Below, piece by piece: positions 2,485-5,447 of a stretch of DNA of 41,887 nucleotides. The position numbers and the translations under genes were made by a program. The notes beneath the pieces are model-generated. The model searched no databases, was not told the origin of the DNA, and worked only from the letters and a program-made list of their open reading frames with translations. Source of the DNA: an uncultured Bacteroidales bacterium (lineage in GTDB: Bacteria > Bacteroidota > Bacteroidia > Bacteroidales > UBA4417). Location: assembly GCA_903822525.1 (NCBI GenBank), contig CAIJPI010000218.1:1-41887 (forward strand), in the 5' to 3' direction. How positions within the stretch are numbered: the stretch's first letter is position 1; each line of letters begins with the position of its first letter.

Positions 2485-2922
2485 ATGAGGTTAAATACAA
2501 AACGGTTTATTTCAGGCATATTAATTACTTCCTTTTTCATCTACTCCATTGTGATATATACAGTAGGAACCAGGGTAGATAAAGGTGAAAAATATGTAAC
2601 CGAGCAGGCAAAGCGGGGAAAACTGCTTTTCCAGAAGAATAACTGCATTGCCTGCCACCAGATTTATGGACTGGGTGGATATATGGGGCCTGATTTAACC
2701 AATGTAATTTCAGCCCCCGGAAAAGGTCCGTTATTCGCCAAGGCTTTTCTGATGGTAGGATCGGAAAGGATGCCTAACTATCATTTAACGGAAACTGAAA
2801 TCGAAGAGCTTATTGCCTTCCTCACTTATGCTGATAAAACCGGCGTTTCGCCTGTTAAAAAATTCGAAATAAATTATGATGGAACCGTTAACTGGAAAGG
2901 GAAAGATGAAAAGAGAGACTAG
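2485..2922 (+). CDS. norC: NorC-like membrane-anchored cytochrome c
   Basis: This is probably the electron-donating c-type cytochrome subunit of a nitric oxide reductase-like complex, anchored in the cytoplasmic membrane with its heme in the periplasm. One N-terminal helix (about residues 8-27) is uncleaved signal-anchor-like. The heme c site is C54-I-A-C-H58, followed by GLGGYMGPDLTN, a segment typical of NorC and related cytochromes. M96 in the ERMPNY context is the likely sixth ligand. The length of 145 residues matches NorC. The next gene, a heme-copper subunit I, overlaps its 3' end, so the two are cotranscribed and translationally coupled. It could instead serve another heme-copper enzyme, because the partner has a non-standard active site. 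Confidence 0.75.
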   Translation: MRLNTKRFISGILITSFFIYSIVIYTVGTRVDKGEKYVTEQAKRGKLLFQKNNCIACHQIYGLGGYMGPDLTNVISAPGKGPLFAKAFLMVGSERMPNYHLTETEIEELIAFLTYADKTGVSPVKKFEINYDGTVNWKGKDEKRD

Positions 2923-4237
2923 CATTTATTTTATATTATTCGCGATACTTGCTTTGTTGGGAGGTGTACTGTTTGGTATTATCGGCGCATTTCAGTTTGT
3001 TATTCCAAAGTTTTTCGAATGGATACCTTTTATTAAAAGCAGGCCGTTACACGTTTCATTGGTTATCGCGTGGATATTCCTGAGCGCAGTGGGTGGCATT
3101 TATTATTACCTGCCAAAGTATTGCAATGTTAAGCTGTTTTCGAACAAATTACAGGTAATCCATCTTTGGATTTTCATACTAACAGGCGTTTTGGTAATCA
3201 CTTCGTACCTGGCGGGAAAATTCGGGGGAAGAGAATATTGGGAGTTCCCTCCTGTACTGGCCATTCCGATAATAGTTTCGTGGCTTATCTTCGGATTTAA
3301 TTATTTCAAAACTGTTTTCACGAAAACCGAACCCTGGCCCGTGTACCTATGGATGTGGGGTACAGGAATATTCTTTTTCCTGTTCACTTATTTGGAATCT
3401 AATTTATGGGTATTCTCCTATTTTCGCGATCACCTGGTCCGCGACATTACCGTTCAGTGGAAAGCAGGCGGTTCCTTGGTTGGTTCCTGGAATATGCTTA
3501 TTTACGGAACAGCCATATTTTTGATGGATAGAATTCAACGGGAAGATAAGATCGCAAAGTCAAGACTGGCATTTATTATGTATTTCCTGGGCTTAACCAA
3601 CCTGATATTTAACTGGGCTCATCATATATACATCGTTCCCAATGCAATATGGGTGAGGTATATAGCTTATGGTATAAGTATGACAGAATTGTTGATCCTG
3701 GGTAAGATAATCTGGAACTGGAAAAGAGACCTGACAAAATCACTCAGGGACTTTCATATTCTTTCAATCCGGTTTATTGTTGCCTCCGATGTTTGGATCC
3801 TACTGAATCTCATTCTGGCAATTTTACTTTCGATACCTGCCATCAATATTTTTACTCATGGCACCCATCTTACTGTAGCGCATGCCATGGGAAGTACGAT
3901 CGGAATAAACACAATGATTCTGATTGCATCCTGTTTATACTTGATTCCCGATGCCACAAATCTTCAGTTTACTAACTTACAAAGCAAGATAATTTCGGTG
4001 GGATTCTGGATAATGAATATCGTTCTACTCTTTTTCTGGCTGGCACTTATCTTTGCAGGATACAGTAAAGGCTACCTGGTTGTTGAAGACAAACTGACAT
4101 TTCAGGAAATCATGCTGCATATCAGGCCATATCTGACAATTATAGCAATAACCGGCATAGGGATTTTCGGAGGAATCATGATGATCTTTACCCCTCCGCT
4201 AACACTACTTAAAAAATATTTATTTGGAGTTCATTAA
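2906..4237 (+). CDS. NorB/CcoN-like heme-copper oxidase superfamily subunit I, atypical ligands
   Basis: This is a polytopic membrane protein of 443 residues with about 12 helices, close to NorB size (about 450-466). I chose the ATG at 2906, overlapping norC by 17 bases, because an ATG at 2876 would add ten residues of norC-overlapping sequence. H49 (PLHVSLVIAW) matches a low-spin heme b ligand. H239-H240 (NWAHHIY) match the metal-B His pair, H326 (LTVAHAM) matches the high-spin heme ligand, and E261 matches NorB E280. The oddity is that where CcoN has QWWYGHNAVG and NorB has its metal-B His, this protein has QWKAGGSLVG, so the His is G189 and no NorB E211 equivalent is seen. The second low-spin ligand of NorB (HGH motif) is M328. 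Family membership is clear by eye. The substrate (NO, O2 or neither) is not. Confidence 0.75.
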   Translation: MKRETSIYFILFAILALLGGVLFGIIGAFQFVIPKFFEWIPFIKSRPLHVSLVIAWIFLSAVGGIYYYLPKYCNVKLFSNKLQVIHLWIFILTGVLVITSYLAGKFGGREYWEFPPVLAIPIIVSWLIFGFNYFKTVFTKTEPWPVYLWMWGTGIFFFLFTYLESNLWVFSYFRDHLVRDITVQWKAGGSLVGSWNMLIYGTAIFLMDRIQREDKIAKSRLAFIMYFLGLTNLIFNWAHHIYIVPNAIWVRYIAYGISMTELLILGKIIWNWKRDLTKSLRDFHILSIRFIVASDVWILLNLILAILLSIPAINIFTHGTHLTVAHAMGSTIGINTMILIASCLYLIPDATNLQFTNLQSKIISVGFWIMNIVLLFFWLALIFAGYSKGYLVVEDKLTFQEIMLHIRPYLTIIAITGIGIFGGIMMIFTPPLTLLKKYLFGVH

Positions 4238-4279: not shown

Positions 4280-4693
4280 CTACTCCTGAATCAGACTAAG
4301 CAAGGTAGTCTGTGCTAGCTTTTCGTATGTATAATCTCTAATATCTTTAAACACTTTCCTGGTATTGCAGGATGCTTCATCCTTGCAAGATTCACATGGC
4401 TGATAGGCTTTCTCCGAAACACATGGCAAAAGAGCTATCGGCCCTTCAAAATGGCGAATAACCTCTGATAGATTAATATCTTCCGGTTTGCGAATCAGGT
4501 AATAACCACCTGATTTACCAAGTTTGCTGCCCAGCATACCCAGTTTCTTCAGATCAAGCAATATAGCTTCGAGATAACGTTGAGGAATAGTTTCACTCCT
4601 GGCTATATCGCTTATAAGTATAGCCCCGTTTCCAACTTCTCTCGCTAAGCGTGTGAGTGCCAGTATGGCATATCTTGTTTTTTGTGATAACAT
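4280..4693 (-). CDS. Rrf2-family transcriptional regulator with Cys cluster
   Basis: This is a 137-residue Rrf2/IscR/NsrR-type regulator. The N-terminal winged helix (residues 1-70) carries the typical opening KTRYAILALTRLA and the wing KSGGYYLIRKP. The C-terminal part holds C91, C100, C103 and C109 (spacing 8, 2, 5). Family members use such clusters to bind a [2Fe-2S] or [4Fe-4S] center sensing NO, redox state or Fe-S status. The spacing differs from IscR (C-x5-C-x5-C). It lies 26 bases after the FNR-like gene on the same strand and faces the NOR-like pair tail to tail, so regulation of norCB in response to NO is a reasonable inference, not shown by an operator I could identify. Confidence 0.88.
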   Translation of the reverse strand: MLSQKTRYAILALTRLAREVGNGAILISDIARSETIPQRYLEAILLDLKKLGMLGSKLGKSGGYYLIRKPEDINLSEVIRHFEGPIALLPCVSEKAYQPCESCKDEASCNTRKVFKDIRDYTYEKLAQTTLLSLIQE

Positions 4694-4719: not shown

Positions 4720-5418
4720 TTAACCGTGTTTGCTGATTTCGAGAAGCTTATGGTAATCTTTAATTTCAAGTACTTTTCCCTCAAACGAAATAATACCTTC
4801 TTTATTCATTTTCGAAAGAGTGGTGATAACATTTTCATGCGAACAGGCTGCAAATTCCGAAATCTCCTTCCTGGTAAATGAAATGGTAAATTTATGGCTC
4901 TTGTATACCTGGTCGGCCAGGTACAGAATAATATCCGCTATCCTTCCATGTACCTGCTTGTGCGCCAGACTTATAAAATTAAAAATAGCTGACTTGAACA
5001 TCTCAGTCGACTCCTCAAACATCATTATCGCATATTTCCCATTGTTCATCAGCGATTTCTTCATGGCCTTACTATCAATCAGGCAAGCTTCACATTCCTC
5101 AAGTGCGATCAGGGAGAAAAGATTAATCTCTTTAAAGAAAAGATTAGCTCCACCTAAAAGAATAGGACCTGTAACAATGGTGAGTATCACACTTTTCCCT
5201 GCTTCATTTTCGAAATTAAATTTAACAATTCCTTTGTGAAGATATACCAGATTTGAGGCTTTGGCTCCCTGCTTCAAAATAGTTTCACCTTTTTTAAATA
5301 ACAATTGCTGTGACGTTCTCCTTATAAGTTCAAACTCTTCGGGTGCAATGTGCCTGCAACTCATTTTCCTGAATGAGCATTCGTTGCAGTCGTAACGGCT
5401 ATGGCGGCTATCTGGCAT
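4720..5418 (-). CDS. Crp/Fnr-family regulator, FNR-like with N-terminal cysteines
   Basis: This is a 232-residue protein with a cyclic-nucleotide-binding-like jelly roll (about 25-130), a long dimer helix (about 130-160) and a C-terminal helix-turn-helix (TRKEISEFAACSHENVITTLSKM, about 180-202, broken here only for reading). I start at the ATG at 5418, because the longer frame begins with TTG and overlaps a -7 box. The N-terminus has C11, C14 and C21 (C-x2-C-x6-C), and C109 and C112 lie in the effector domain. E. coli FNR uses three N-terminal cysteines plus one central cysteine for its oxygen-sensing [4Fe-4S] cluster, so cluster binding is plausible. It heads a two-gene operon with the Rrf2 regulator. 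Confidence 0.88.
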   Translation of the reverse strand: MPDSRHSRYDCNECSFRKMSCRHIAPEEFELIRRTSQQLLFKKGETILKQGAKASNLVYLHKGIVKFNFENEAGKSVILTIVTGPILLGGANLFFKEINLFSLIALEECEACLIDSKAMKKSLMNNGKYAIMMFEESTEMFKSAIFNFISLAHKQVHGRIADIILYLADQVYKSHKFTISFTRKEISEFAACSHENVITTLSKMNKEGIISFEGKVLEIKDYHKLLEISKHG

Positions 5419-5439
5419 ATTTGTTTGTTTTTTAATATC

Positions 5440-5447
5440 CAAACCTA
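5440..5447 (-). promoter_or_regulatory. -7 box of the FNR-like gene
   Basis: On the minus strand TAGGTTTG fits TAnnTTTG. Transcription would begin about 15 bases before the ATG at 5418. No convincing -33 element was seen. Confidence 0.4.

Follow-up and report, generated by a model that had tools for sequence, protein, structure and literature searches.

A NorB-like protein family with glycine and methionine at two conserved heme-copper histidine positions, encoded with a NorC-type cytochrome c in Bacteroidota

The 41,887-nt stretch of DNA analysed here (the window), from an uncultured Bacteroidales bacterium, encodes a protein of the heme-copper fold that is nearest to NorB and CcoN and that has Gly and Met at two positions where these proteins have metal-B and low-spin heme histidines. 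The protein belongs to a family that forms a separate clade with shared changes, and is not one NO reductase (NOR) with a lesion. It is associated with N2O/NO metabolism, yet does not in general take the place of NOR. As a tentative first choice, it is proposed to form a NorCB-like two-subunit complex, fed by cytochrome c, that would reduce NO with a His/Met heme b and with a metal B that is either rebuilt or weakly held to vacant.

The gene pair and its two neighbours in the window are as follows:
2485..2922, + strand, NorC-like membrane-anchored mono-heme cytochrome c of 145 aa (Pfam Cytochrom_C 1e-9; best solved-structure match NorC 3o0r_C, E 3e-13)
2906..4237, + strand, NorB/CcoN-like heme-copper-fold subunit of 443 aa (PF00115 E 2e-35; 3o0r_B E 1.2e-19)
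4280..4693, - strand, Rrf2-family regulator with a Cys cluster, convergent neighbour (PF02082 E 2.8e-33; Cys motif read)
4720..5442, - strand, CRP/FNR-type regulator with an N-terminal Cys cluster, CNEC...C (PF13545 and PF00027)

The cytochrome c gene (2485-2922) and the NorB-like gene (2906-4237) overlap by 17 bases, and the product of the latter was read directly as one uninterrupted ORF. Beyond the pair, and on the opposite strand, come the Rrf2 gene and then the CRP/FNR-type gene, each with a Cys cluster; the NorC-like, FNR-like and Rrf2 neighbours named in the original prediction are borne out by the structure match of the cytochrome and by Pfam for the regulators. By its PF00115 match, the large subunit has the subunit I fold of the heme-copper oxidoreductase (HCO) superfamily. 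Among solved structures, phmmer places P. aeruginosa NorB (3o0r_B) first and CcoN next, a family profile search with hmmsearch also ranks NorB first, and Foldseek of the predicted structure returns 3o0r_B as the best match by E-value (4.4e-13, TM 0.83) with CcoN structures close behind. The NCBIfam ccoN score is 69.9 bits for a cut-off of 583. The structure model has a pTM of 0.86 and a pLDDT below 50 at residues 179-188, 238-240 and 242-245; because these belong to active-site loops, no active-site geometry or distances were taken from it.

The correspondence of ligands was derived from profile-profile alignments to cNOR (E 1.9e-26) and to CcoN (E 5.6e-18), and checked further with phmmer and hmmsearch against 3o0r_B and with a joint MAFFT alignment for which column counts were made. 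NorB residues were located by their numbering within these alignments; their names and roles in the P. aeruginosa protein (H60, H207, E211, H258-259, E280, H347, H349 and E138) are general background or come from the original prediction. The positions are:
3050..3052, + strand, H49, first low-spin heme b ligand position (NorB H60), His in all rows of the joint alignment
3470..3472, + strand, G189 (ggt) at the place of NorB H207, a metal-B ligand, Gly in 24/24 and 22/22
3620..3625, + strand, H239-H240, the remaining metal-B His pair (NorB H258-H259), invariant
3686..3688, + strand, E261 (NorB E280), candidate carboxylate ligand, invariant
3866..3868, + strand, H321, invariant in the family and not at that position in the compared families (family and joint alignments)
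3881..3883, + strand, H326 (cat), proximal heme b3 ligand position (NorB H347; family, profile-profile and joint alignments)
3887..3889, + strand, M328 (atg) at the place of NorB H349, candidate second low-spin heme b ligand, Met in 24/24 and 22/22

G189 falls on NorB H207 in the cNOR profile-profile, hmmsearch and joint alignments. The phmmer register is off by one, H207 being an insertion between G188 and G189, and in either register the NorB-like protein offers no His or Glu at this place. M328 falls on NorB H349 in the cNOR profile-profile and joint alignments. Both columns contain His in 6/6 cNOR, 6/6 qNOR, the NOD-like row, 10/10 CcoN and P. aeruginosa NorB. A counterpart of NorB E211 is absent from the joint MAFFT and hmmsearch alignments, and V192 stands there in the cNOR profile-profile alignment. 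At the E261 position of the joint alignment, cNOR and qNOR also have Glu, the NOD-like row has Gln and CcoN has Leu. The spacing from G189 to H239 is 50 residues, as in CcoN (H206-H256), and is 51 in cNOR (H187-H238). These results uphold the ligand reading of the original prediction, which had matched H49, H239-H240, E261 and H326 to NorB, placed Gly at the first metal-B His with the spacing of CcoN, seen no equivalent of E211, and proposed Met as a putative ligand at the second low-spin heme position. H176, which had been named as the residue that might occupy metal B instead, lies in a variable column (N 14, H 8 and S 2 of the 24 sequences) and was rejected. The NorB-like protein keeps four of the six histidines that passages of PMC3413370 describe as the signature of HCOs; the remaining two are replaced by G189 and M328.

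The family alignment comprises 24 sequences that are 40-84% identical to the window protein, and the wider joint alignment has 22 family rows among cNOR, qNOR, NOD-like and CcoN rows. Residues G189, H239, H240, E261, H321, H326 and M328 are invariant in all 24 sequences, and H49 does not vary among them either. The Gly and Met substitutions, which the original prediction had proposed to look for in close homologues, are common to these and to 22/22 family rows of the wider alignment, and G189 and M328 can therefore not be attributed to sequencing error. E164, K186, N196 and Y242 are also invariant in 24/24; none of the cNOR, qNOR, NOD-like and CcoN rows used for comparison has the family residue at the E164, K186, N196 or H321 position, and Y242 occurs also in cNOR, qNOR and the NOD-like row. 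The residue aligned with NorB E138, which we take to have a role in the proton path, is E113; it is Glu in 24/24 sequences and in 21/22 rows of the wider alignment, with Ala in locus L103. Four more members from other genomes (L095, L100, L102 and L103) agree with the ligand pattern. One genome has a second family copy (L131, G457:C6), an open frame of 444 codons that likewise encodes Gly and Met at the two positions. Values of dN to five relatives range from 0.12 to 0.23, dS being not computable (returned as -1 and taken as saturation), and the low dN is counted as support for purifying selection on the NorB-like gene.

In a tree of 46 rows (22 family, 6 Bacteroidota cNOR, P. aeruginosa NorB, 6 qNOR, 1 NOD-like and 10 CcoN), the family forms a single clade (100/99) that is separate from cNOR, qNOR and CcoN. 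The cNOR, qNOR and NOD-like rows form another clade (99/97), with the family outside in this tree; branches are long, and a grouping of the family with cNOR was not rejected by the AU test (p 0.115). The original prediction of a NOR relative with an unusual site stands as to the kinship with NorB and the altered metal-B ligands, and is amended in that the protein represents a separate clade and not one lesioned NOR. A search of genome contigs by exact peptide patterns gave at least 29 loci, a lower bound set by the method, with 26 in contigs titled as Bacteroidota groups and 3 in Proteobacteria or Lysobacterales MAGs. Flavobacterium silvisoli RD-2-33, the single hit whose title does not mark it as a MAG, has nosZ, and neither NirK above the cut-off nor NirS, cNOR or qNOR was found in it. 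An even draw of 395 Bacteroidota genomes contained 7 carriers, the window's own genome included, and 7 of the 60 genomes of another set (own included) carry the family, all 7 being of the same genus. Plasmid-borne relatives were not found at E 1e-30.

The NorC-like gene lies directly upstream of the family gene in the window and at 32 of 34 loci, with L049 and L053 ending at the family gene. The heme c ligands of its product, C54, C57, H58 and M96-P97 (CxxCH and Met-Pro), are present in 33/33 sequences. Rrf2 or CRP/FNR-type regulators recur at some other loci, genes for ScdA/RIC and a bacterial-like globin were identified by Pfam close to the family gene in L094, and NadAB, anaerobic NrdD, HemN and nar genes were recognised by eye at some loci. 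An FNR-type box of the form TTGA-N4-6-TCAA was found in none of 22 upstream regions, and the looser TTG-N8-CAA in two of them.

Other genes recur in these surroundings. A membrane protein family of ca. 400-430 aa is found near the gene in three genomes (L094:1187-2422, L052:11464-12681 and L055:8889-10190), with an H-[SA]-HSHFAF motif in L094 and L052; the L094 member has no Pfam match. Next to the family gene or to a nos cluster, a fasciclin-domain gene recurs (L098:4167-4745, L094:2489-3046, L095:1174-1752, L096:10827-11384 and L097:707-1282), as called by Pfam for L094 only, by phmmer for L094-L097 and by eye for L098. Genome G442, a carrier with both nosZ and NirK, encodes a NOD-like protein of qNOR length (L102:11375-13681), with HN for HH and Q for E, next to the family gene and divergently from it. 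Finally, the window's own genome has a qNOR with canonical ligands at G000:C118 (L099:6031-8271), near genes that are ScdA-like and Rrf2-like by eye.

In the even draw, nosZ is present in all seven carriers (counting the window's own genome), against 129/395 in the background (hypergeometric 3.5e-4), and without the own genome the figures are 6/6 against 128/394 (1.1e-3), these values serving as a guide only since the genomes are related. Overall, nosZ was found in 23 of the 36 carriers examined and 13 show none, it being understood that MAG incompleteness bears on every gene absence counted among carriers. Four of the 23 (G426, G468, G471 and G472) have nosZ on the same contig as the family gene, 11.5-14.5 kb away, and in four carriers with few contigs (G108, G205, G355 and G442) the two are on different contigs. 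NirK is over the cut-off in 6/36 carriers, plus one just under it (G470), and convincing NirS occurs in one (G466). In 28/36 there is no convincing NirS and no NirK, even when the near-threshold case is counted. As a common source of NO, NrfA was discarded, being clear in only 4/36 carriers (of nine rows above the family cut-off, five are only weak partial matches).

Canonical reductases coexist with the family: cNOR is found in 6/36 carriers, qNOR in 7/36 (one a fragment, in G010) and a NOD-like gene in one. Among nosZ-positive genomes, 9/23 carriers also encode a cNOR, a qNOR or the NOD-like protein, against 15/80 non-carriers with cNOR or qNOR (Fisher p 0.053), the latter set being 80 of 122 available genomes; omitting the NOD-like gene leaves 8/23 carriers (p 0.15). 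The NorB-query matches of non-carriers were classed as cNOR or qNOR by E-value and length, and motifs were read for carriers and for G121, a nosZ-positive non-carrier whose match is a qNOR fragment counted in the 15/80. Replacement of canonical NOR by the family is not supported, canonical NOR being if anything commoner in carriers. Two Proteobacteria-titled carriers, G465 and G470, have NirK (just under the cut-off in G470) and, among their listed HCOs, nothing else recognisable as a NOR, and a third carrier of Proteobacteria type, G466, has NirS plus an eNOR-like protein. In the latter genome (L127 and L130), a B-family-like HCO has GHSSQQ replacing the oxidase GHPEVY, and it was called eNOR-like because this motif is expected for such a protein; a second COX1-like protein is encoded on the same contig.

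From the fold, the partner gene, the kept and lost ligand positions, the clade and the genomic setting, we infer the heme and metal content, the Met ligation, the substrate and the reaction of the complex as follows. Electrons would enter at the cytochrome c, whose heme c has His/Met ligands, and travel by way of the H49/M328 heme b to the catalytic heme b3 (H326), at which NO met under low oxygen would be reduced. Metal B may have been rebuilt as a 2-His-1-carboxylate site of H239, H240 and E261, leaving a gap in place of the first metal-B His and E211; alternatively, it may be weakly held or absent, in which last case H239, H240 and E261, possibly joined by K186, would border an empty pocket. 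Judging from the genomic setting, NO is the likeliest substrate, and it is favoured over oxygen because E261 is common to cNOR and qNOR and not to CcoN. Reduction of NO by this complex is consistent with the NorB/CcoN fold, the NorC-like partner with its heme c ligands in 33/33, the invariant H326, HH pair and E261, the conservation of E113, purifying selection, the FNR and Rrf2 neighbours and the nosZ association. The nearby nosZ in 4/23, the ScdA/RIC and globin genes of L094, the NOD-like neighbour in G442, and NirK with no recognised NOR in G465 and G470 point the same way. Against it stand the loss of two of the six signature histidines and of the Glu of canonical NOR, the majority of carriers in which no NO-forming nitrite reductase of the NirK, NirS or NrfA kinds was found, the undepleted canonical NOR, the four few-contig carriers with nosZ on another contig, the eNOR-like protein of G466 and the lack of a TTGA-N4-6-TCAA box in 22 upstream regions.

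A possible, less probable version is that the binuclear centre has been given up, and that a mononuclear heme b3 pocket lined by the invariant Lys, His pair, Tyr and Glu, and supplied with electrons by a His/Met heme b, would carry out a reaction within NO/N2O metabolism unlike the NO reduction of known NORs.

It is unlikely that the complex is an electron carrier and no reductase, with metal B gone, a His of H239/H240 closing heme b3, and electrons exchanged between cytochrome c and another system such as NosZ. A heme b with His/Met ligation would have a shifted potential, which would suit such a role, as would the loss of the metal-B His and of E211, the association with nosZ and the quinol modules of NrfD type or resembling ActABC that were seen by eye near the gene at a few loci (NrfD by Pfam only in L037). 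However, around the metal-B motifs K186, N196, Y242 and E261 do not vary, which seems more than a plain carrier needs, and 13/36 carriers show no nosZ. Equally doubtful is a reductase or dismutase acting on another small molecule (hydroxylamine, nitrite, or NO in a different reaction) in a pocket with His, Lys, Tyr and Glu. In its favour are the invariant K186 and H321, which do not occur at those positions in the compared families, and the putative NO dismutases, as presented in parts of PMC3413370, suggest that ligand changes can accompany new chemistry; the candidate substrates are, however, themselves conjectural. An oxygen reductase working on trace oxygen might be read from the CcoN-like QW motif and spacing and from the CRP/FNR-type neighbours, but it is improbable, since the CuB ligand is lost and in 7/7 carriers for which PF00115 was run, other proteins match COX1 more strongly (oxidase motifs were read for 3/7). 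Finally, a decayed, non-functional copy or a sequencing error, as the bare loss of canonical ligands might suggest and as the original prediction had considered in part, is dismissed given the same residues in 24/24 sequences from many species, the intact partner gene and the low dN, obtained with no computable dS.

No published description of this ligand set was found in a search outside which the central 2024 survey of NOR diversity (Murali 2024, 10.1073/pnas.2316422121) fell, and a prior listing of the family as an unnamed HCO is possible. By PMC12569097, the reference set of that survey comprises 67 Nor and 865 other HCOs. According to parts of PMC12569097, a large survey excluded sequences that do not have the conserved ligand-binding residues, and nor-lacking genomes that have nir and nosZ (9% for Bacteroidota) were noted as unexplained. 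The family could be sought in such genomes. A conserved clade that does without two signature histidines and goes with a NorC-type cytochrome and nosZ would be either an NO consumer of N2O-reducing Bacteroidota that has gone uncounted, or a natural experiment on what metal B and a bis-His heme are needed for; it may handle NO by unfamiliar chemistry or do a different job.

When compared to known systems, the family shares with cNOR (NorCB; P. aeruginosa 3o0r, R. denitrificans 4xyd) the fold, a NorC-type mono-heme cytochrome c partner (window and 32 of 34 loci), H49, the HH pair, E261, H326 and the HGT motif before H326. It differs in forming a clade of its own in the tree and, by alignment, in that FeB would have neither the first of its three His nor E211, and in that M328 replaces H349, so that His does not occupy both low-spin heme b positions. 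Because cNOR-defining ligand features were tested and found to be absent, the family was not filed as cNOR. With CcoN (cbb3) it shares the fold, the RP.H motif, a QW helix that lacks the E211 residue and the 50-residue spacing to HH; it differs in having Gly for one of the three CuB His, Met for one of the two heme b His, Glu (E261) at a position that is Leu in CcoN, and a single NorC-like cytochrome upstream. The putative NO dismutases, derived from qNOR, are likewise ligand-altered NOR relatives, with one His changed to Asn and Glu to Gln as described in portions of PMC3413370; they alter one His of the HH pair and keep the other five, whereas the family alters two other positions, keeps HH and E261, and at 443 aa is not of qNOR length. 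Lastly, eNOR, sNOR, gNOR, nNOR and bNOR are also NOR families with altered active-site residues (PMC8756737, from part of Table A4), the substituted residue of eNOR, sNOR and gNOR being one that is Tyr in oxidases (same table); by their description in parts of PMC11388526 these five are related to B-family oxidases, whereas the window family matches NorB and CcoN.
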